A model generated the notes under the pieces. The model was not told the origin of the DNA and did no database searches. It saw only the letters and a program-made list of their open reading frames with translations. Below, piece by piece: positions 38,722 to 48,943 of a stretch of DNA of 64,000 nucleotides. This stretch comes from Entophlyctis helioformis (Eukaryota; Chytridiomycota; Chytridiomycetes; Chytridiales; Chytriomycetaceae), in contig JAHLKH010000024.1 in assembly GCA_025526915.1 (NCBI GenBank), positions 1-64,000 of the forward strand, in the 5' to 3' direction. Every line of letters starts with the position of its first letter. The first letter of the stretch is position 1. The position numbers and the translations under genes are program-made.

Positions 38722-41527
38722 TCACTTGCCCTTGGATCCCCACAGACTGCCCAGCACGCCGCCAAGGAAGCCAGAGGGCGGCGATGCGCTGCCGGTCGCA
38801 CCACCAGCCTCGCCGTCCTGCTGCAACATGCGCGTCACCCGCGCACCACCACGCGACAGCGCACGGATGTTGCCCGTGGGGAACTGGATGCCGCCGTACG
38901 CGAGATCGTACAGGATCGGCTTGAACGCCACGTCTTCAAACGTGGGCGGGATGTGCTGGACAACGAGTCCGCTTCCAGCAGCCAGCGAGCCGCTCTTGCC
39001 CCGCTTGGGCCGCTTGCCCTTGGTGCCAGGTGTGGTAGCTGCAGATGCAGAGGACGAGCCTGCCGACACGTCGCGCGGCTGGAAGAACTCGGACATGCGT
39101 CCGGAAAAGTCGTTGGGAGCCACGGCCAAAGAGCGGGCGGGAGCATCGCCGTCAAGAGCAAGGCTGCCCATGGCGTCCGTGATGGACGTGGGAGCAGCAG
39201 TCTCGTCGCGCGTCAGAAGCCATCTCGCGTGGCAGCTGGCCATTTCGCCACGGATACGCTGCTCAAGAGCGGCAAGGCGGGCCGTGTCGAGCGGTGTCTG
39301 GTTGTGTGGCAGCGTCTTGGGCTTGACTTTGTTGAGGTCAGCGCGGCCGAGCTGGACGTTTTCAAGAGCCTTGGTGAGCAGGGCAAGCGCCTCGGGGATC
39401 TTGGACTCGGCCGTGTACAGGTCTGCCGTGTGCGCAAGTCTGCCCAACCGACCCACCAGACACGTCAGCCAAGGGTTCGCAAAAGCGGGGCAAGATGGAT
39501 GGATGGATAGACTGGATGGGATGGCGACATGCCACGTACCTCTGTGCAATGCAGGCAAACGTGCGCGATGCAACAATATGGCTCAGGGCAGCATCCGTCT
39601 GCATGATGGGCAGCTCGGCCATCTCCTTGAGTGTCTGCAACGCATAGCCGTCAGTCTCTTTGGGCGGTACATCATCAATGCATTCGCCAGTTCCAACGAA
39701 CCTGCAGAACCGACAGATCCAGACGGACGAGCTCGTCGCGGCGGACAGGACGTCTGTCTCCTGTGGTGGTGCCGGTGCGTGCCTGGGCCTGGAGCTGGGC
39801 CGCGGCAATCTCGCTGAGAAGCGCGCCACGGTCGAGCGTGTGCTGCAGACGGTCAAACGACACAAACGAAAAGATGTTGCGGAGCATCTCGGTGTGCTCG
39901 TCACTCTTGGACGACTTGACCTTGGAGACTGCAATCTGCACCGCGTCCAGCACGATCGAGGATCAGCAACTGCTCAGGCAGCAGAGGGCACACACGGGGC
40001 ACAAACACAACGCACCGCATCTTCCTTGATGTCCTTTTCGGCGAGCTTGGCAGCATCCCAGCCAAGACCAATCAGCTTGTCGTACAAGGCAAGCAACTCG
40101 TCAACACGGCTCTTGTCGTCGTCGCCAGCCTTTAATGCCGCGACCACTGCCTCCGTCTCTTTGGCGACCTGCACGCCAAGCTCGCGCGTCTCAATGACAA
40201 TCGCCATCAGCTTCTCGTTGCCGACCTGCAGCTGCAGTCCGCGCCAGGGCACGACATGGCTCTTGGCGGCCTGCAGATGGAGGTTCTGTGCCAGGAGAGA
40301 CTCGAGCTTGGACGCGAGGAGGTCAGAGCCAGGGCCAGTGCTCTTGGAGCGGAGCTCGAGCAGCGAGGCAATGTCGGCATGGTTGCCGGCCGTCTTGCTG
40401 GAGCGGAGGTTGTAAGCGCAGTAGCGGATGTTGGGATCGATCTCGTCGATGGCAGCCTGGTACAGCGTAGCCTGTGCGGGCGAGGACGCCACGAGCGCCA
40501 GCTGCTCGTAGATGGCGCTATCAACGTGCAGCGTCAGCGTGTGTGTGAATGTGTGCATGTGTGCACCAGTGGTGTTGGGCTGCGGCGCTCTTACCGAGAC
40601 GAGACGAACAGATCGAGGGCCGCCTGCCACTGCTGACGCTCAAAGGCCAGATAGGCAGCCAGCAGCGACGAGTACGCCTGTACACATGCACGCAGGCAAG
40701 CACGCAGGCAAGTATGCAGCCAGCCAGCCAGCGAGCGTCAGTCCAAGGTGCATCTGGCAGCACGGCAGCCGACGGCACACGCACCTGGGCCTCGAGGGCC
40801 GAGCGAGAGTCGACGGCGGGATCCTGGCACAGCGTCTCGAGCGACTTTGCAGCCTGCGCAGCCCTGACGAGCCGCTTGACGAGATGGTGCTTCTTGCGGG
40901 GCTCGTACTGCGAGTCGGCACGCAGCTGCATGGCGTATGCCCACGCACGCTCGGCCTCGAACAGCAGCGACTGCAACGCCCTGTCGGTGGTGCAGGCGAG
41001 AGGGTCAGCAGAGGGCGGGTCGTGAAGGCGGACAGACGCAAGACGCAGGATGCAGGACGCACTTGTCGTCGGCGCCGATGGTGTCGGCGGTCACCACCTT
41101 GCGCTCGTAGCGACGCTTGGTGCCCTGCGAGAAGCCCGACGCCTTGCGCACACGGTGGATCTTGCGAGCGCAGTACGTCCTGTGCCGGCGTGCGAGCGGT
41201 GTTGGCAGGCGAGCGTGAGACAGGCGTGAGGCAGCAGGCGTGAGACAGGCAGGCAGGCAGGCAGGCAGACGCACCGGTAGCGCTGGTAGTCCTGCTGGCG
41301 CAGGCCGTACATGTTGCGAGCCTCGTTGGTGAGCGACAGGACTGGGCGGCGTGGCGCAGACGCAGACGCAGGCATGGCGTGCGAGGGTCAGCAACCAGAA
41401 CCACCACTACTACCACCACCACCACGACTACTTCCGCCACCACCACCACCACGGCCACCGCCGCCAGATACGCACCCTCGAGCACAATCTTGGCGCCGTC
41501 TGCGCCGTCCACGTCCATCGGCGACAT
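38722..41527 (-). CDS. SRP68: Signal recognition particle subunit SRP68
   Basis: SRP68 with SRP72 binds the SRP RNA and is needed for co-translational targeting to the ER. Nine exons (41527-41476, 41341-41275, 41179-41063, 40980-40785, 40677-40595, 40517-40016, 39935-39702, 39634-39540, 39439-38722) give 687 aa, all in frame; human SRP68 is 627. The N-terminal RNA-binding region reads 'LSLTNEARNMYGLRQQDYQR', then 'YCARKIHRVRKASGF', close to the family pattern 'YGLRHQDYQRYR...YCARRLRRLRK'. The middle is TPR-like helical ('RRKKHHLVKRL'-type segment, 'AYSSLLAAYLAFERQQWQAA'). The C-terminal 'FQPRDV'/'FKPILYDLAY' segment is the SRP72-binding tail. Its start codon is 14 nt from the left edge of the inserted element. 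Confidence 0.93.
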
Positions 41528-41541
41528 GGCAGCGAGTTGGT

Positions 41542-41557
41542 TTGTTGGAAGACGCTC
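41542..41557 (+). repeat. Left copy of a 16-bp direct repeat flanking the Fanzor element
   Basis: TTGTTGGAAGACGCTC lies 14 nt upstream of the SRP68 ATG. The identical 16-mer occurs at 48928-48943. A chance match of this length somewhere in 64 kb is possible (order of 0.5 expected). A chance match exactly at both borders of the intergenic region is much less likely. Confidence 0.6.
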
Positions 41558-41690
41558 TTTCCATTACCCCTGGTGGAATATTCCTGATTGGTCGATCCTG
41601 GTGGAATCGCTGTGATTGGCCGATCTTGGTGGACTCGCTGTGATTGGTCAATCCTGGTGGAATCGCTGTGATTGGCCGATCTAGAGAGCC
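41558..41690. repeat. 28-bp tandem array carrying CCAATCA boxes
   Basis: TGATTGG occurs at 41585, 41613, 41641 and 41669, an exact 28-bp period. The consensus unit is TGATTGG(C/T)CGATC(C/T)TGG plus TGGA(A/C)TCGCTG. A degenerate first unit (CCTGGTGGAATATTCC) starts right after the left 16-mer. On the minus strand each unit gives CCAATCA in the sense direction of SRP68, 58-148 nt upstream of its ATG. CCAAT boxes bind NF-Y/HAP complexes. Confidence 0.8.
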
Positions 41691-43060
41691 CTTGCACGGT
41701 GCAGACACTGCGCGATGCGAGCACAGCAACAACGCGCCATGCCAGATCCAGATGCTGCTGCACTTGCCGCCCAACTGCACACAAACAACAACGAGCCAAA
41801 CGACAACGACGGCAACGACGCAGGCGACAGCACGGATATGGGACAACACTCGCTTGCTGGCTGAGTCCTTCGGGGGAGATGGCGAGGCTCACTGCTCAAG
41901 GTGGCATGCAGCAGGCAGTCCAGCAGGTCATGCAGCAGAGCAGCGTGGTCGTGGCCGTCCAAAAGGCGCACTGAACAAGGCGGGCGGACAGAAGGCAGGC
42001 TGCAGACAGGCGAGCAGGTGCGTTGACTCGCTGTCTGTCCAGGCATGCTCCATTGCCCATCAACGACGACAGCACAGCAGTCTGACGGCCGTGTCTGTGT
42101 TGTCTTGGCACTGACTGTGTGCATGTCTGATGGCTCCAAACAGCAAGGGACGTTGGCAGGCGGCCGTGAGCAGGGCGATCTGGTTGTTGTTCAAGAGGAC
42201 AGCGAGAGCATTGGCATCGCAGGACTGAGCTGCCTGGTGCTTTCCGACTGCGACATGGGATGCAGCAGCAGCGATGAGCAGCCACTGAGACGTGCTCAAT
42301 GGACCGATCCTTGGAGTTGGCTGCAGGAACTGCTTGCTGGGCAGCTGGATTGGCATGCCGACTTGGATGCCAAACTAGGCAGTGGCAGCACACTCGACGA
42401 GCAGCACACTCGGCGACACTGATCCAGGCGAGATTGGTGAGGAGGACGCGAGTGCTGGCAGGCGTGTCTGGCCACATTGCACTTGGTGCGATGGCATCTT
42501 GGATGCGATCCACTGAGCAGCACATGGAGTGGCCAGACAGACCAAGCACTCTCCATTCATTCAACAACCACAACAATGATGATGGCGATGGTCCTGACTA
42601 TCCCAGTCTTGCATGCACTGTGTTTGTTGACAAGGACAATCCAGAGCAGAGGGGCGATACAGGCAGTGTGCCAACAGCCAACCTGTCCATGGACCAGCTG
42701 GCCAGTCAGGCAACACCAACTGCATCGCACTGGGTCACAATGCAGACACATATCAGGGCGATCGATGGATGCAATGGGACATTGACTGAGAAGACGCTAC
42801 TCGGAGAGAGGCTCACTGCAATGCAGCTCAAGACATGCAGAGTGATGCTGCACAGTGCATATCGAGCTGCGCACTGGGTGGCATCACATCAATGACTGTG
42901 CCAGCAACATACGACCGCATCTTGAACGCCTGGCTGTTGGCTGTGCTCGCTGCTCCCTCTATGGCTGTTGGACAGTGGGCGGCAAGTGCCAGACTGCTTG
43001 CTCTCTATCCACTCGCTCTCTGTTTTCATCCAATAGACACTTAAACTCCGCCAGACGCTC
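41691..43060 (+). other. Coding-like left arm of the element, includes an AT-hook motif
   Basis: Several plus-strand frames look partly coding but I could not join them. At 41941-41985 a frame reads 'EQRGRGRPKGALNKAGGQK', whose GRPKG core is an AT-hook, a minor-groove DNA-binding motif. A frame ending at 42422 continues with an acidic stretch ('GDLVVVQEDSESIGIAG'). Another (to 42895) contains 'DGDGPDYPSLACTVFVDKDN'. A last frame reads to 43044. These may be exons of one element-encoded DNA-binding protein, or decayed remains. No start, stop or splice model is firm. Confidence 0.3.
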
Positions 43061-43165
43061 CGATTCTTTTCTTGTAAACACAGATACAGACGCAGCAGCA
43101 GCACGCACCAGTACGCAGCACCACACAGTACCACACACACACCACGCAGCAGCAGCAGCACCAAC

Positions 43166-43722
43166 ATGACTTTCGTAGGCCTGCTGAAAGTGGCCGAGAT
43201 GCACAGCGCCGTCCTTGTCCACACCGCTGCCTGGGCCCTGGGCCAGGTCATGCAGGTTGTGCTCCACAGCACACTGCCGCAACAGCAAGCCGCAACAACA
43301 GCAACAGCCGCAACAACAACAGCCGCCAGCAGCTTCATCAGCAGCATGCTGCACGTCGACTATCTCAGCACATTCTTTTTGGCCTTGGTTGCAACAGCCG
43401 CCGTCACCAGCCAGACTCCAAGGCCGGCTGGAAGGCCATTATCCAGCCGGCCTTGGATGTCTTCATGGCGTCGCTTGGTAATGGCCACGACGTCTGGTTC
43501 CATGTTGACAGGCGTCTCGGTGACTCGGAGGTCAAGCTGGTCCACCACAGCCGCACACTCAAGATGCTCGAAGCAGCCGCCACAGTCCAGCAGCACACCT
43601 ACCGGCGTCAAGAATACAAGCAGGCAGGGTCAATGACCAAGTAGGCTTGCTGCTCTGAATTGTGTGGCTGCCTTACTAACCACCTTCTGCTTCTGGCGAT
43701 CAGGGAAGAGACCCATTGTTAG
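43166..43722 (+). CDS. ORF X of the element, unrecognised
   Basis: The start CACCAAC-ATG has a good initiation context. The N-terminal part reads MTFVGLLKVAEMHSAVLVHT and then a Gln/Thr/Ala-rich linker. From about 43430 the coding look moves to another frame ('DVFMASLGNGHDVWFHVDRR', 'LVHHSRTLKMLEAAATVQQH'). Either a short intron or a frame error lies near 43380-43430. The end is supported by an intron 43641-43703 (GTAGGC, CTAAC branch point, GATCAG) joining ACC-AA to G-GAA-GAG and a stop at 43722. I do not recognise the protein. Its place just upstream of gene Y and the Fanzor suggests a companion gene. Confidence 0.35.
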
Positions 43723-44009
43723 ATTATTGTCTGTTGGCTTTTCCAATTCTGTGTCTCGCGACTCTCCCTTTCCCTTGCTGTTCTATTCAATTGCCTGCCT
43801 CAGACGCTGTCGTCTGACAGCTCTTCTCCCTTTGTCTGTGCCGCAGCCAAACCCGCAGTTCCCTGTGCCTTCGCTGCACTCGAGCAGGAACTCTGACAAC
43901 AACTGTGAGTGGAACTGCAGGCTTGTGATTGTGAGCATCTTGTGCACGCAGAATGGACACCTGATACTGGATCCAACCGCGGCAGGAGCCACGCCATTGC
44001 ACGCTGGCC
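43723..44009. other. Gap between ORF X and gene Y
   Basis: Pyrimidine-rich DNA, with CTGCCTCAG- and GCCGCAG-like acceptor sites, precedes the gene Y ATG. Upstream exons of gene Y may lie here, but none can be fixed. Confidence 0.3.
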
Positions 44010-45393
44010 ATGCTGGCTGCACGTGAGAAGGAGAGGGCAGAGCGTGCAGAGAAGGCCAAGGCAGATGAGATCGTCAAGGAGAACAAGAAGGAGGGAGGTC
44101 TGGATGCCCGAAAGGACAAAACTGGTGACAAGACGGGCACGTGAGTGGCATATGGCATGTTGCATGCCTTGATTGTGCTTGCTGACATGGATTCTGCTGG
44201 CAGATACGCATTTCATGCAAGACGCACCTTGCACAATGAGCTTGTCCGGATGGGCGACTACAAACAAGGGGCCTGCCAGACTCTTCCTGCAGCCGCCAAT
44301 TTCAAAGCACCAACAGAGGAGGGCACAGAGAAAGACAAGGACGAGCACGAGCGCGAGCAGGAGGCACAGCAGCATCCCAAAGCACCAAAGGCTCAGACAA
44401 ACACGCAGCAACATCGCCCCAATATGATCGTGGATCTGAAGGTATGGGGGTTGATCGCGATGCTGCTCTGCATGCTCGGCTTTGTGTGTGCTGACAGGTG
44501 TGCAGGAGATGGTTTCAGACAATCCAGCAAGCGCAAAGTTGTTGGGCCCTCCAGCCAAACCACCATCAGCAGAGCAAACCATCGCCATGGTTGTCCTAGC
44601 CTGCATTTCCAAGGTTTACACGTTCATCGTCGGCGCTCGGCATGTCGGGATTGTGATGCTCGGCGCTGTTCTCGAAGTACTGCTCAAGCTCGAGTCAGAC
44701 GAGCCACTGCCACTCGATTATCGCGTTTTCAAGTGGACCAGCGATGGAAAGACCAACTACTGCTTTCTTGATCGCAAGAAACTTGACCGCAAGACGGAGG
44801 CTGCGCTCTTGGCAGGATACTGTGTGCTGGAAAAGGACACCATGGTCCGGTTTATGTACGGCGTTGGTCCACATGGTCGCAAGGGCAAAATCCCTTTCTA
44901 TGGGGATTCTGTGATCCTCTCAAAGGACACAGTGCTTGAGCTCTGCTCGCTCGGACGCGTCAAGAAGCCCAAGCAGCCCAATGGCCCCAATGACCCTGAC
45001 AGTCCTGACAGCCATGAGGACGATCGCGACCACGAGGATGATGATGATCATGATGACCACGAGGACGATGACAATCATGATGACCACGAGGATGACGAGC
45101 AGCATGAGCAGCACAAGCAGCAAGCAGAAGCAGAAGCTGCTGCAGTCATTCCAACTGCCAATCAACTCCTCACAGCACTGACCAGCAGCAGATCCGGTGG
45201 CGAGACGTCTGTGGCATGTCTCCTACGCCACATTGTCACGATTGTTGGCAATGGTCGCATGGCAAAGCCGCGATCATATATGGACACCACCAACGCATGG
45301 TTGGTCACCGTCATGCAGTTGATTGTTCACCGTAACTGGACACGGCGCATGGTGCACGCCAATTGTAACGGATGCTCGGTCGCGGTCACGTGA
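44010..45393 (+). CDS. Gene Y of the element, unrecognised protein with charged N- and C-terminal tracts
   Basis: Three exons (44010-44140, 44204-44441, 44506-45393) with introns of 63 and 64 nt give 418 aa, all in frame. The N-terminus is a highly charged, probably coiled-coil segment ('AREKERAERAEKAKADEIVK'). The middle has a hydrophobic stretch ('TIAMVVLACISKVYTFIVGA') and a compact, well-conserved-looking part ('DYRVFKWTSDGKTNYCFLDR', 'TMVRFMYGVGPHGRKGK'). A D/H/E-rich run follows at about 45005-45120. The stop codon lies inside the first CACGTG of the E-box palindrome. No family is recognised. The introns, spacing and strand match the Fanzor downstream, so it may be an accessory or mobilisation protein, or an N-terminal part of the same transcription unit. 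Confidence 0.5.
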
Positions 45394-45422
45394 TCCACGT
45401 GATCCACGTGACCCACGTGACC
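45384..45422. promoter_or_regulatory. Four-E-box array forming an imperfect palindrome
   Basis: Four CACGTG cores occur at a 9-bp period (45387, 45396, 45405, 45414). The outer ends GGTCACGTG and CACGTGACC are inverted copies, so the whole 39 bp is near-palindromic. It overlaps the end of gene Y and lies 230 bp before the Fanzor ATG, a plausible bHLH-factor-bound promoter. Confidence 0.5.
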
Positions 45423-45472
45423 GGACAGACATTGTCGGGCCGCACCGGCCGCTCTGGTTTCCCCGTTCTTGC

Positions 45473-45596
45473 AGTCGTCTGCCCGCCGTTCCCCTGCGTG
45501 CATACTCACTGCCCCGAGACCAGGTCTGTGCTGCTCCCAATGAAGTAGTCGTCTGCCCGCCGTTCCCCTGCGTGCATACTCACTGCCCGAGACCAG
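45473..45596. repeat. 50-bp tandem duplication upstream of the Fanzor
   Basis: The 51-bp sequence at 45473-45523 (AGTCGTCTGCCCGCCG... to ...GAGACCAG) is repeated at 45547-45596, lacking one C. The period is 74 bp. Both copies end in a potential 3' splice site (GACCAG), so the duplication may have copied an intron end. Confidence 0.85.
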
Positions 45597-45654
45597 CCGG
45601 CAAGTCCGCCTGGAGGCCCAGTACTACACCAATGCAGGCAAGGTGCGTGCAGAC

Positions 45655-48600
45655 ATGGCTGATGCTGACATGATGGACATGGATATGATGGATGCTGACA
45701 AGATGGACGCGATCCAGACAAGCGCGATCCAGACAGATTTGGACAAGGCAGTCCTGCCATGCAAGCTGGCTGTTGGTCTGTGCTCGAGAGCGGCCAATGA
45801 CATCTACAGCTACTTGGCCCGAGATATCTGCACCATGCTGGCAGTGCATGTCATCTCGAACCAGTCGATGCTCGTGCTTGCTGCTGCCCACCAGCTGATG
45901 CCCGGCGCATCAAAGGAGGAGGTCGTGGCATCAGTCGCGGCCATGACCAAAGCCATTGAGGACGCCACGCCACTGGCCGCCAAGGACGCGGCACCACTGG
46001 TCGCTGAGGACGCCATGCCGCTGGTCGCCAAGGATGCCCCATCGCCGGCCGATCTTGACGCTGCACCACAAGCCACTCTGGATGCTGCACCTCCTGCGGC
46101 AGGTCGCAAGAGGGCCCTGTCTAGCTCTTCGTCGCCCACCGATTGCACCGCGACCAAGAAGCCATGTGGCAAGAGGGACGAGGCCACCACAGACGCGGCA
46201 TCCAGCACACCTTCAGACACGGAGGGAATGGCCATTGCTGGGATCCCCCGACAGCTGGTTAGGCTTGCGGCGATCTTGCTCAACAAATCGCTGTCAGAAA
46301 TAGGCAAGTTCTACCAGCTGCGCAAGCTGGCCGGCGAAACAGTGATCAAGTTATGCCCTGAGGCGGCGAACCGGGACCCGTTTGTCCATATCACCGAGAC
46401 CATTCTGTTTTGGTCGGTGATAGGGAACCTGAAGGATCGCAAGCCAACCAAGAACAACGCGGCATTGCAGGCTTTGCAAAAGCGTCTCTTGGCTGCGATC
46501 AGCAGTAGGTCGCACTTGGTTATGCCATGCTTACATGATTTGATACTTACAAACCACTCTTCTCAAAGAGCCTGGCTTGCAAGCCTTGACTCTTGCGTCA
46601 TCCAACAACGACATACAAGCCGCTTTCAGCTCAAGCCGCGAGGATTGCGTTCTCGACATCCTCCTCCCTGGACTCGCCTCGGATACACGTCGCTTCCAGA
46701 CGCCTGCAGACGCTAAGGTCCAGATGGACGCGGCCAACGCCAAGGCAAAGAAAGCGGCTACAGCCAAGGCGACGCGAGAGGCCAAGAGACTCCTTCTGGT
46801 TGGCAAGGTGCGCGAGGATTACATCCAGGCTGCGATCAAAGCCCTGCCCCCAGCGCGACCAACCAAGGCTGTCAGACTAGGCAGCATCAAGACCGATGGA
46901 TACAGCGTCTCTCAGCTGACTCTGGACTTTCGCACAGACCGTCCAGAGTCACCACGCAGTATGTGGCGTACTTGAATGCGATGGTGCACACATTGGTTCT
47001 GACATCCGCCTTGATCTGCAGATCCCAACGCGGCGTCTTCAGGCGAGCAGCTCAGTCTTGCTGGTGATGCTCATGATGATGAGGCCAATGACGGGCATGA
47101 TCACATGGATGTCACATGTGAGTTGCTGTGCCAATCCAGACGCGCACTTGTTGACCACACCGACTGACATGCCATCCACAGCCGCCAATCCAGCCGACCC
47201 ATCAGCCGCCAAGCCATACACGCCCAATCCTGTAAGCCACTTGCATGCTAAACTCGCGTATTGGTGCACATGCATTGCCCATTCCTCACTCATGTCATGG
47301 CACGACAGGGCAAGCGCAGCTTCTACGCCTCGCAGCGATTGCCCAACATTGTCAAAGCCAACAAGTTGTTCACCAACAAGGGCTACCGGTTTGTTCGCGT
47401 TGTCAGCTTTGATTGGGGCAAGCGGTACCTGTATGGCGCGTCCAGCATCTTGGTCGATCTCAGAGACTTTTCATATACGCTCGAGGCCAACTACGTGCTC
47501 GCCTCTGGCATGGCACATGCTGAGCGCATCTTTCAGGACTGGTATGCATGCAATGACTCTGCCACGCGCACTCTTGACCAGATCAACTCACAGTGCTTGT
47601 CTCTTGTGCCATGTTTGACGACCGACTTGCCAAGGCTGCTGACGTCCATGAGGCCATTGCATTCAAGACAGCAAAGCATGCCGATCCAAACGTCAAGCCT
47701 GGCGAGAGAGCCTTTTGGGATCTGCGCTGCCATGCGTACTGCACGCCATTCCTGAATGCACGGGTACGGTTTCTCTGGTTCTGGATGCCTATTGCCATGG
47801 CTGCCATTCTGCTTTATCGCCTGCTGATCGCACTGGATGGCATGGCATGGCATGGCATTCCACAGAAGGTCAAGGCCAAGCGGTTCACCATGCGCAGCAA
47901 CAGCACCTCTGATCGCGGAAACGCTCTTGAGGGCATCATGAAGCTGGCAGGCTCGACCACTGGAGAGCGCGCATCTGCTGCGTCTCAAGGCCGCTGTGAC
48001 AAGCCAACAGAGGACAACATTCCCGTTGTCTGGGCATTTGGCATTGACTTTACAGGTCAAGGTGGCCGGCACGCTGTGTTTGAGAAGTTTCTCATCAGGC
48101 ATCTGCAGTCGTCTGGATATGCCTATGTGCGTCTGATGCCACGCTGTCCATCCATCCATCCATCTGTGCACCAACTGACACACGATCCTGCACACACACA
48201 GATCTACCGCTGCAACGAGAACCTGACCAGCCAGATGTGCCCGCAGTGCAAGCAGCGGATCCCATATGAGAACCGCACCAACCTGCGACGCTACGAGTGC
48301 ATACCATGCAAGACTGTCTACCACCGCGATGTGCTTGGAGCCACCAACATCGGGATGGTTGCACTGTGGCATCTGCTCTTTGGACACCGGCCGCTCTACT
48401 TGACGCACACCAAAGCCGACAGCAATCCAGCCACGCAAGCGCACCTCAACAGCATCGCGGCAATGCATATCTCCATCCAGCTGCGTGCAATACGTGCTCC
48501 GCCTGTCAACCAGCAGCCTCTGGCACCACCCGATCCGCCCGTCATCCAGCAGCCTCCAACACCATCTGATCGGCCTGTCGTCCAGGATCGTGCAAGACGT

Positions 48601-48699
48601 GTCGACAAGCTGCGTCCAACACAGTCACAGCGCGTCAGCAAGTCACAGCGTGCCAGCAAGTCACGTGCCACTCCACGTGACAAGCCTATGGCGCACTGA
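45655..48699 (+). CDS. Fanzor (eukaryotic TnpB-like, RNA-guided DNA endonuclease)
   Basis: Fanzors are eukaryotic relatives of TnpB that cut DNA guided by an RNA transcribed from the element. Proposed exons are 45655-46504, 46569-46958, 47022-47117, 47182-47231, 47309-47541, 47594-47763, 47866-48126 and 48202-48699, about 850 aa. The N-terminal half has a helical segment ('IYSYLARDICTMLAVHVI') and a basic/acidic linker. Then come 'SIKTDGYSVSQLTLDF', the beta-strand block before RuvC in this family, RuvC-I 'FVRVVSFDWGKRYLYGASS' (Asp 47411), 'VVWAFGIDF' with 'FEKFLIRHLQSSGYAY', the 'NENLTSQMCPQC' segment (Glu 48217, alternative catalytic Glu position of Fanzors), a second zinc pair 'ECIPC', and RuvC-III 'YHRDVLGATNIG' (Asp 48328). 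The C-terminal tail is Pro/Arg-rich. The join 47541/47594 is one base out of frame. Upstream exons are possible. Confidence 0.88.
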
Positions 48700-48927
48700 C
48701 TTCCAGCACCACCAGCAACTTTTGGAATCGGGGCACCTCCCGATCGACCTAACGGGTCACTTTCAAATAAAGGTAAGACCCTCGTTGGATGTGCTCGCCC
48801 GCCTGTCGTCGCATGCTCGTTGCTGACTCGAACCTTCCCTCGTGTGATGTGCTGGCTTGCATTCGTCGCCTCTCGGGTCGAATTTAATTCCAAAATTCTT
48901 GGTAATTGTATGAATATCGGGCCTGGA
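48700..48927 (+). ncRNA. Candidate Fanzor guide (omega-like) RNA scaffold at the element right end
   Basis: Known Fanzor guide RNAs come from the DNA just 3' of the gene and run into the flank. Here two short hairpins follow the stop: TCGGG-GCACCT-CCCGA (about 48727-48742) and GACC-TAACG-GGTC (48747-48759). There is also an alternative GGGTC...GACCC pairing around CAAATAAAGG. AATAAA at about 48769 could instead be the mRNA polyadenylation signal. A GGTTCGAGTC string on the minus strand (about 48830) resembles a pol III B-box. No expression evidence exists. This is a position- and fold-based guess. Confidence 0.35.
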
Positions 48928-48943
48928 TTGTTGGAAGACGCTC
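48928..48943 (+). repeat. Right copy of the 16-bp direct repeat
   Basis: Identical to 41542-41557. It begins right at the right end of the element and lies 15 nt beyond the SRPK stop codon (48959, minus strand). Confidence 0.6.

Follow-up and report, generated by a model that had tools for sequence, protein, structure and literature searches.

The window, a 64,000 nucleotide stretch of the genome of the chytrid Entophlyctis helioformis, contains a gene with Fanzor-type motifs (45655-48699) inside a copy of a DNA transposon (Table 1). An earlier note on this DNA had recognised a Fanzor gene in what it took, correctly, for a fungal genome, while the abundant transposon that carries the gene had gone unnoticed. 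The element is flanked on the left by an SRP68 gene (PF16969, E 9.3e-12; 41480-41527, minus strand), whose apparent start codon is separated by about 15 bp from the repeat that flanks the element, and on the right by a protein kinase gene (PF00069; 49090-51147, minus strand).

Table 1 Features of the Fanzor-carrying element and its gene, in positions of the window
Feature	Position	Strand	Basis or remark
Fanzor-carrying DNA transposon copy, 7.4 kb	41558..48923	+	Right border and left start near 41555 common to other copies; end patterns genome-wide
Left copy of 16-bp direct repeat TTGTTGGAAGACGCTC flanking the element, instead of an 8-bp duplication	41542..41557	+	Printed sequences
Remainder of left inverted repeat (...CCATTACCCC), outer ~15 nt lost	41558..41570	+	Against intact left ends GGCCCGGTTCTCATACCATTACCCC
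Companion-gene remnant (MTFVGLL...)	43166..43712	+	Similarity to L049/L050 until about 43711; XPG-like motifs in fuller copies; rest deleted
Upstream part of Fanzor frame, severed by LTR	44455..45363	+	Continuous 733-aa frame in L049; window frame stops inside LTR
Solo LTR, 265 bp, TGTAAC...TACA	45364..45628	.	CCAAT on both sides (45359-45363, 45629-45633); missing in L049 and in other copies
Fanzor exon 1 as named in the earlier note; true gene start further upstream	45655..46504	+	Open spliced model
Fanzor exon 2 with TDG (KTDGYS)	46569..46958	+	Spliced model
Fanzor exon 3	47022..47117	+	Spliced model
Fanzor exon 4	47182..47231	+	Spliced model; GT-AG intron 3' of exon 4 in 19/19 aligned copies
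Fanzor exon 5 with RuvC-I Asp	47309..47541	+	Copy alignment
Intron 5, mutated acceptor AT at 47611-47612	47542..47612	+	AG in the other 34/35 copies; splice position from annotated protein P0001
Fanzor exon 6 (where the acceptor works)	47613..47763	+	Copy alignment
Fanzor exon 7	47866..48126	+	Copy alignment
Fanzor exon 8 with Glu, C4 ribbon and HRD	48202..48699	+	PF07282; residues kept in 35/35 copies
Conserved 3' block up to right border; candidate guide-RNA scaffold	48784..48923	+	45 copies, mean column identity 85%
Right inverted repeat GGTAATTGTATGAATATCGGGCC	48901..48923	+	Exact pattern match; border common to other copies
Right copy of 16-bp direct repeat	48928..48943	+	Printed sequences
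Inverted-repeat sequence of the Fanzor element family			GGCCCGGTTCTCATACC

The residues named in the earlier note could all be placed at codons of the window gene, namely the RuvC-I Asp (FDWG, 47411-47413), the Glu of NENLTSQMC (48217-48219), the four Cys of a C4 zinc ribbon (48238-48240, 48247-48249, 48298-48300 and 48307-48309) and the RuvC-III Arg-Asp (HRD, 48322-48330), in the order given there, with RuvC-I and the ribbon on different exons and introns of 63-102 nt in the spliced model and copy alignment, as short as had been described. Their spacing, D-X(188)-TS-X2-C4-X5-RD (X = 197 with the GC donor discussed below; TS-QM-C4 at the ribbon), falls within the Fanzor/TnpB motif D-X(125,275)-[TS][TS]-X-X-C4-X(5,50)-RD as published by Bao and Jurka (2013, PMC3627910). 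The Pfam profile PF07282 matches both the raw frame (E 2.2e-9, 37.7 bits) and the spliced core (E 1.4e-10, 41.6 bits, above the curated cut-off of 26.3), and the spliced core also matches the transposase family phrog_506 (E 2.5e-8) and, below cut-off, two NCBIfam TnpB models (E 3.5e-5 and 1e-4). By motif and profile the gene is a genuine Fanzor/TnpB relative, in agreement with the membership first proposed for it.

In an alignment of 35 copies, every one retains the ribbon Glu, all four Cys and HRD, and 34 retain DWG; the remaining copy, its frame shifted, reads DGA. Two traits of Fanzor1 according to Yoon et al. (2023, PMC10711439) are a Glu adjacent to the zinc ribbon and, in the WED domain, a TDG. 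Here the Glu, placed by motif as the E of NENLTS, adjoins the ribbon in 35 of 35 copies, as the earlier note had it for the window, and exon 2 carries a TDG (KTDG, RTDG or MTDG in copies of a 19-copy alignment); judging from these residues, the class is most likely Fanzor1. RuvC-I reads DWG, as against the DPG that Yoon et al. assign to the Fanzor and pro-Fanzor clade (PMC10711439), and the residues named for SpuFz1 by Saito et al. (2023, PMC10432273), D383, N385, E541 and D606, suggest, going by D383 and N385, that DPG is not universal within Fanzor1.

Comparison of copies shows that the element ends in inverted repeats. Their patterns match genome-wide at 87 left and 127 right ends, while the reversed patterns match nowhere in the genome, and pairing of the 87 left with 100 of the 127 right ends, on the same strand and within 22 kb, gave at least 47 pairs (31 of 7.2-9.8 kb, 3 of 1.0-2.2 kb and 13 of 10.7-20.6 kb). 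Target duplications of 8 bp, allowing one mismatch, flank 8 of the 16 copies in which both ends were read, seven of them exact; the other eight have no clean 8-bp duplication, among them C198 and C348, with a different outer sequence on the left, and C37 and C5c, in which a comparable repeat is shifted out of register. Inverted repeats together with these duplications identify the gene as one encoded in a eukaryotic transposon. A Helitron or retrotransposon, considered because the 16-bp direct repeat in the window and a longer one at L052 resembled duplications of variable length, was set aside in view of the inverted repeats in 16 copies and the 8-bp duplication in eight.

Several further features of the family were observed. 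Over the left 1.5 kb of the element (41597-43111), identity stays at about 93% even with L051 and L052, while their middle part, where it aligns, reaches only about 70-75%. Variant flanks adjoin the border in some copies, the right ends of L015-L019, L021 and L060 continuing as ATTTGCCGGCGG... and the left ends of L059 and L063 reading ...GACCCTTCCTGC; these may reflect either a nested insertion or a subfamily whose ends are longer. Three short elements, known from end pairs alone, carry both inverted repeats (G000:C35:164494-165475, 984 bp; C436:7865-8909, 1046 bp; C199:20585-22746, 2163 bp) and are possibly akin to the 'ghost loci' described by Saito et al. (PMC10432273).

Motifs and zinc ribbon had been called intact, which holds for the residues but not for the gene. 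The intron 5 acceptor reads AG in 34 of the 35 aligned copies and AT in the window alone, where ordinary splice sites no longer connect RuvC-I and the zinc ribbon in one frame, and the exon-5 frame read through intron 5 meets a stop at 47755, 5' of the ribbon. Upstream, a solo LTR interrupts what in another copy, L049, is one 733-aa open frame, and the start at 45655 is artificial, the frame extending further upstream in L049. About 1.9 kb of L049 is missing from the window copy, in which 188 bp take the place of 2.06 kb, and with it went most of the companion gene described below; the left inverted repeat lacks the outer part present in intact left ends. The lost splice acceptor, the LTR in the frame, the deletion and the truncated transposon end make the 'possibly active' nuclease of the earlier note unlikely for this copy, which probably makes full-length Fanzor protein no longer and is probably a fossil, neither moving nor producing a complete Fanzor.

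Fanzor sequence occurs at no fewer than 121 separate places in the genome, a lower bound from a search in which the best candidates were scored. The copy alignment comprises the window and 34 of the 42 loci taken up, the eight dropped being second fetches of places already included. Exons 5-8 (to 48402) are open in 23 of these 35 copies; because the copies were drawn by best score from the 121 places, the open share may be lower overall. Mean dN/dS among the 23 open copies (253 pairs) is 0.51, against 0.75 and 1.40 in the shifted frames, which suggests that exons 5-8 were once under moderate purifying selection, although these estimates are probably blurred by exchange between copies, since introns 5-7 (47309-48201 region) are 92-97% identical between copies as against 84% for exon 5, as if copies exchanged pieces. 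The catalytic part is still readable in many relatives within the same genome, and Fanzor activity of other copies is plausible. Intron 7 (48127-48201) measures 66-117 nt across copies and is a multiple of three in 28 of 35; retained, it leaves 16 of the 23 otherwise open copies still open, and it may be translated in some transcripts.

A profile of six spliced cores, searched against proteins with the best 7995 word-sharing candidates scored, finds five, P0001-P0005, from Entophlyctis helioformis only and all annotated as 'hypothetical protein'. All five are truncated: in none does the frame extend to the zinc ribbon, and precomputed Pfam annotation assigns no domain to any of them, so that genes of this kind could be overlooked in surveys based on predicted proteins. 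No relatives were found with a single spliced protein as the query, and none in viral contigs. An element with the same ends lacking Fanzor was sought, and the candidates, C10 and C215, proved to hold a Fanzor exon. A search of main texts found, among the matches listed, no paper on Fanzor in Entophlyctis helioformis, which published surveys may nevertheless include.

Fuller copies contain a second conserved coding region to the left of the Fanzor gene. XPG_I_2 is the best Pfam match in all five annotated companion proteins of the set (P0006-P0010; P0011, partly different, was excluded), with E 0.0047-0.014 and scores of 15.3-16.9 bits that lie below the curated cut-off of 24.2 in each case, and a 5'-3' exonuclease N-domain matches weakly in three of the five. 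The order of acidic residues resembles that of XPG/FEN1. The profile search that gave PF07282 for the core returned no match for the companion protein, sequence searches of solved structures gave weak PDB matches of other kinds and no XPG-type support, and the AlphaFold model (pLDDT 37.7) was too poor and was left unused. The resemblance to XPG nucleases may serve as a lead. Following it, the family might spread with two nucleases, the RNA-guided Fanzor1 cutting the empty site and an XPG-type 5' nuclease trimming flaps or ends, with no transposase recognised; we consider this unlikely, and if true, such an element could rely on an RNA-guided cut and host repair to a greater degree than the Fanzor transposons in the literature compared.

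The last 140 nt before the right border form a conserved block in the copies compared, which would be the candidate source of a guide RNA, but introns are as conserved as this block or more, so its conservation alone is no evidence for a working RNA. Window positions 48788-48927, reaching four bases past the border, fold no better than shuffled sequences (z -0.09), none of 13 consensus pairs in the block has compensatory changes, and Rfam gave one chance-level match to the candidate (E 0.53).

Three other readings bear on the identity, the activity and the movement of the element. Significant profile matches are limited to the C-terminal ribbon region, as they might be in a zinc-ribbon protein with a RuvC-like pattern outside the Fanzor/TnpB nucleases, and solved structures gave no significant match to any solved Fanzor with either the ribbon profile or the whole core. 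The whole core found a single unrelated protein (E 1.1) and no Fanzor or TnpB, while the ribbon profile gave 16 matches at E up to 10, led by an unrelated enzyme (E 0.059), with two unrelated proteins ranking above the best TnpB-like match (E 0.073). Yet 11 of these 16 weak matches are TnpB, Fanzor, Cas12-type or named transposase proteins, among which we count LaTranC and 9j09, taking them to be of these types, and the full ordered motif, the TDG, the position of the Glu and the transposon setting all agree with Fanzor/TnpB, so that a protein outside these nucleases seems extremely improbable. As to activity, a GC-AG splice or an internal start could give some product from the window copy: with a non-canonical GC donor at 47550, and only with it, the spliced model is free of stops from 45655 to 48699, and all 19 copies of one alignment share this GC and the AG at 47592-47593. 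This GC-donor form of intron 5 was adopted at first, the frame being open with it in 23 of 35 copies, and was dropped when P0001 pointed to a GT-AG intron with an acceptor 19 nt downstream, which the window alone has lost. For the window copy to make a working Fanzor, the GC-AG intron (47550-47593) would have to be combined with an internal start after the LTR, perhaps driven by it. We think this very unlikely, given that 34 of the 35 copies, all but the window, retain the normal GT-AG acceptor, so that the GC is not required to explain the conserved sequence, that the LTR cuts off the 5' portion of the frame, and that rescue by the GC donor has no independent support.

As to movement, no Pfam transposase was recognised in the pieces of L049, L050 and L052 searched, and the element could be a non-autonomous passenger of a KDZ transposon of the Zisupton type, moved by the transposase of the latter. 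Zisupton, a KDZ member, is described as making 8-bp duplications (PMC12730594), the length found at 8 of 16 copies here, and the same genome has four KDZ matches over the cut-off, on three contigs (C334, C271 and C396). However, none of the 47 paired elements contains a KDZ match, and 8-bp duplications are also made by hAT; a KDZ carrier acting in trans is possible but rather unlikely. A MULE search of the genome gave no match, and an hAT search gave none either, in the genome or in controls, and is uninformative.

With a probability of about 0.83, we read the window gene as part of a decayed member of a large family of DNA transposons in Entophlyctis helioformis that carry Fanzor1; direct observations behind this reading are the core with its RuvC and zinc-ribbon motifs, the number of copies, the inverted repeats and 8-bp duplications seen elsewhere in the family, and the damage to the window copy. 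By analogy with published Fanzor/TnpB systems, the Fanzor of intact copies would take up a guide RNA that combines the element's 3' end with the DNA beside the right border, and would then cut the corresponding empty site, on either a sister or a homologous chromosome, where repair from the element-bearing copy would keep or spread the transposon. As none is recognised in the element, a transposase would presumably act in trans. While the single window copy is of little weight alone, the reason transposons keep Fanzor is unsolved, and here one genome offers at least 121 Fanzor places, many open catalytic exons and a conserved partner gene. A compact chytrid genome of this kind would allow purifying selection, right-end guide sequences and empty sites to be compared together.

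Among the systems described by Bao and Jurka (PMC3627910), the MuDr-like Fanzor1 elements of Rhizopus, Phycomyces and Mucor and the IS4-type elements of Ectocarpus are likewise, by description, TIR elements, with duplications of 9 bp in the MuDr-like elements and 8 bp in ESvi-1B, although the Entophlyctis genome has no MULE match to set beside the former. High copy number is shared with CRe-1/2/3 of Chlamydomonas and CMe-1A of Cyanidioschyzon, the latter given as about 150 copies, and Fanzor1 genes with introns with CRe; CRe are, however, described as Helitron2 elements and CMe-1A as having no inverted repeats (PMC3627910), in contrast to the TIR element of Entophlyctis. SPu-1, with SpuFz1, of Spizellomyces punctatus, also a chytrid, shares the Fanzor1-type core with Glu beside the ribbon, and is described as multicopy, lying between inverted repeats and having no internal transposase (PMC3627910, PMC10432273). 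SPu-1 is described as about 2.1 kb long, having a single unbroken frame, repeats of 33 bp and duplications of TA (PMC3627910), whereas the Entophlyctis element spans 7-10 kb, has many introns, 8-bp duplications and a second conserved gene, and its Fanzor sequence is found at 121 or more places in one genome.
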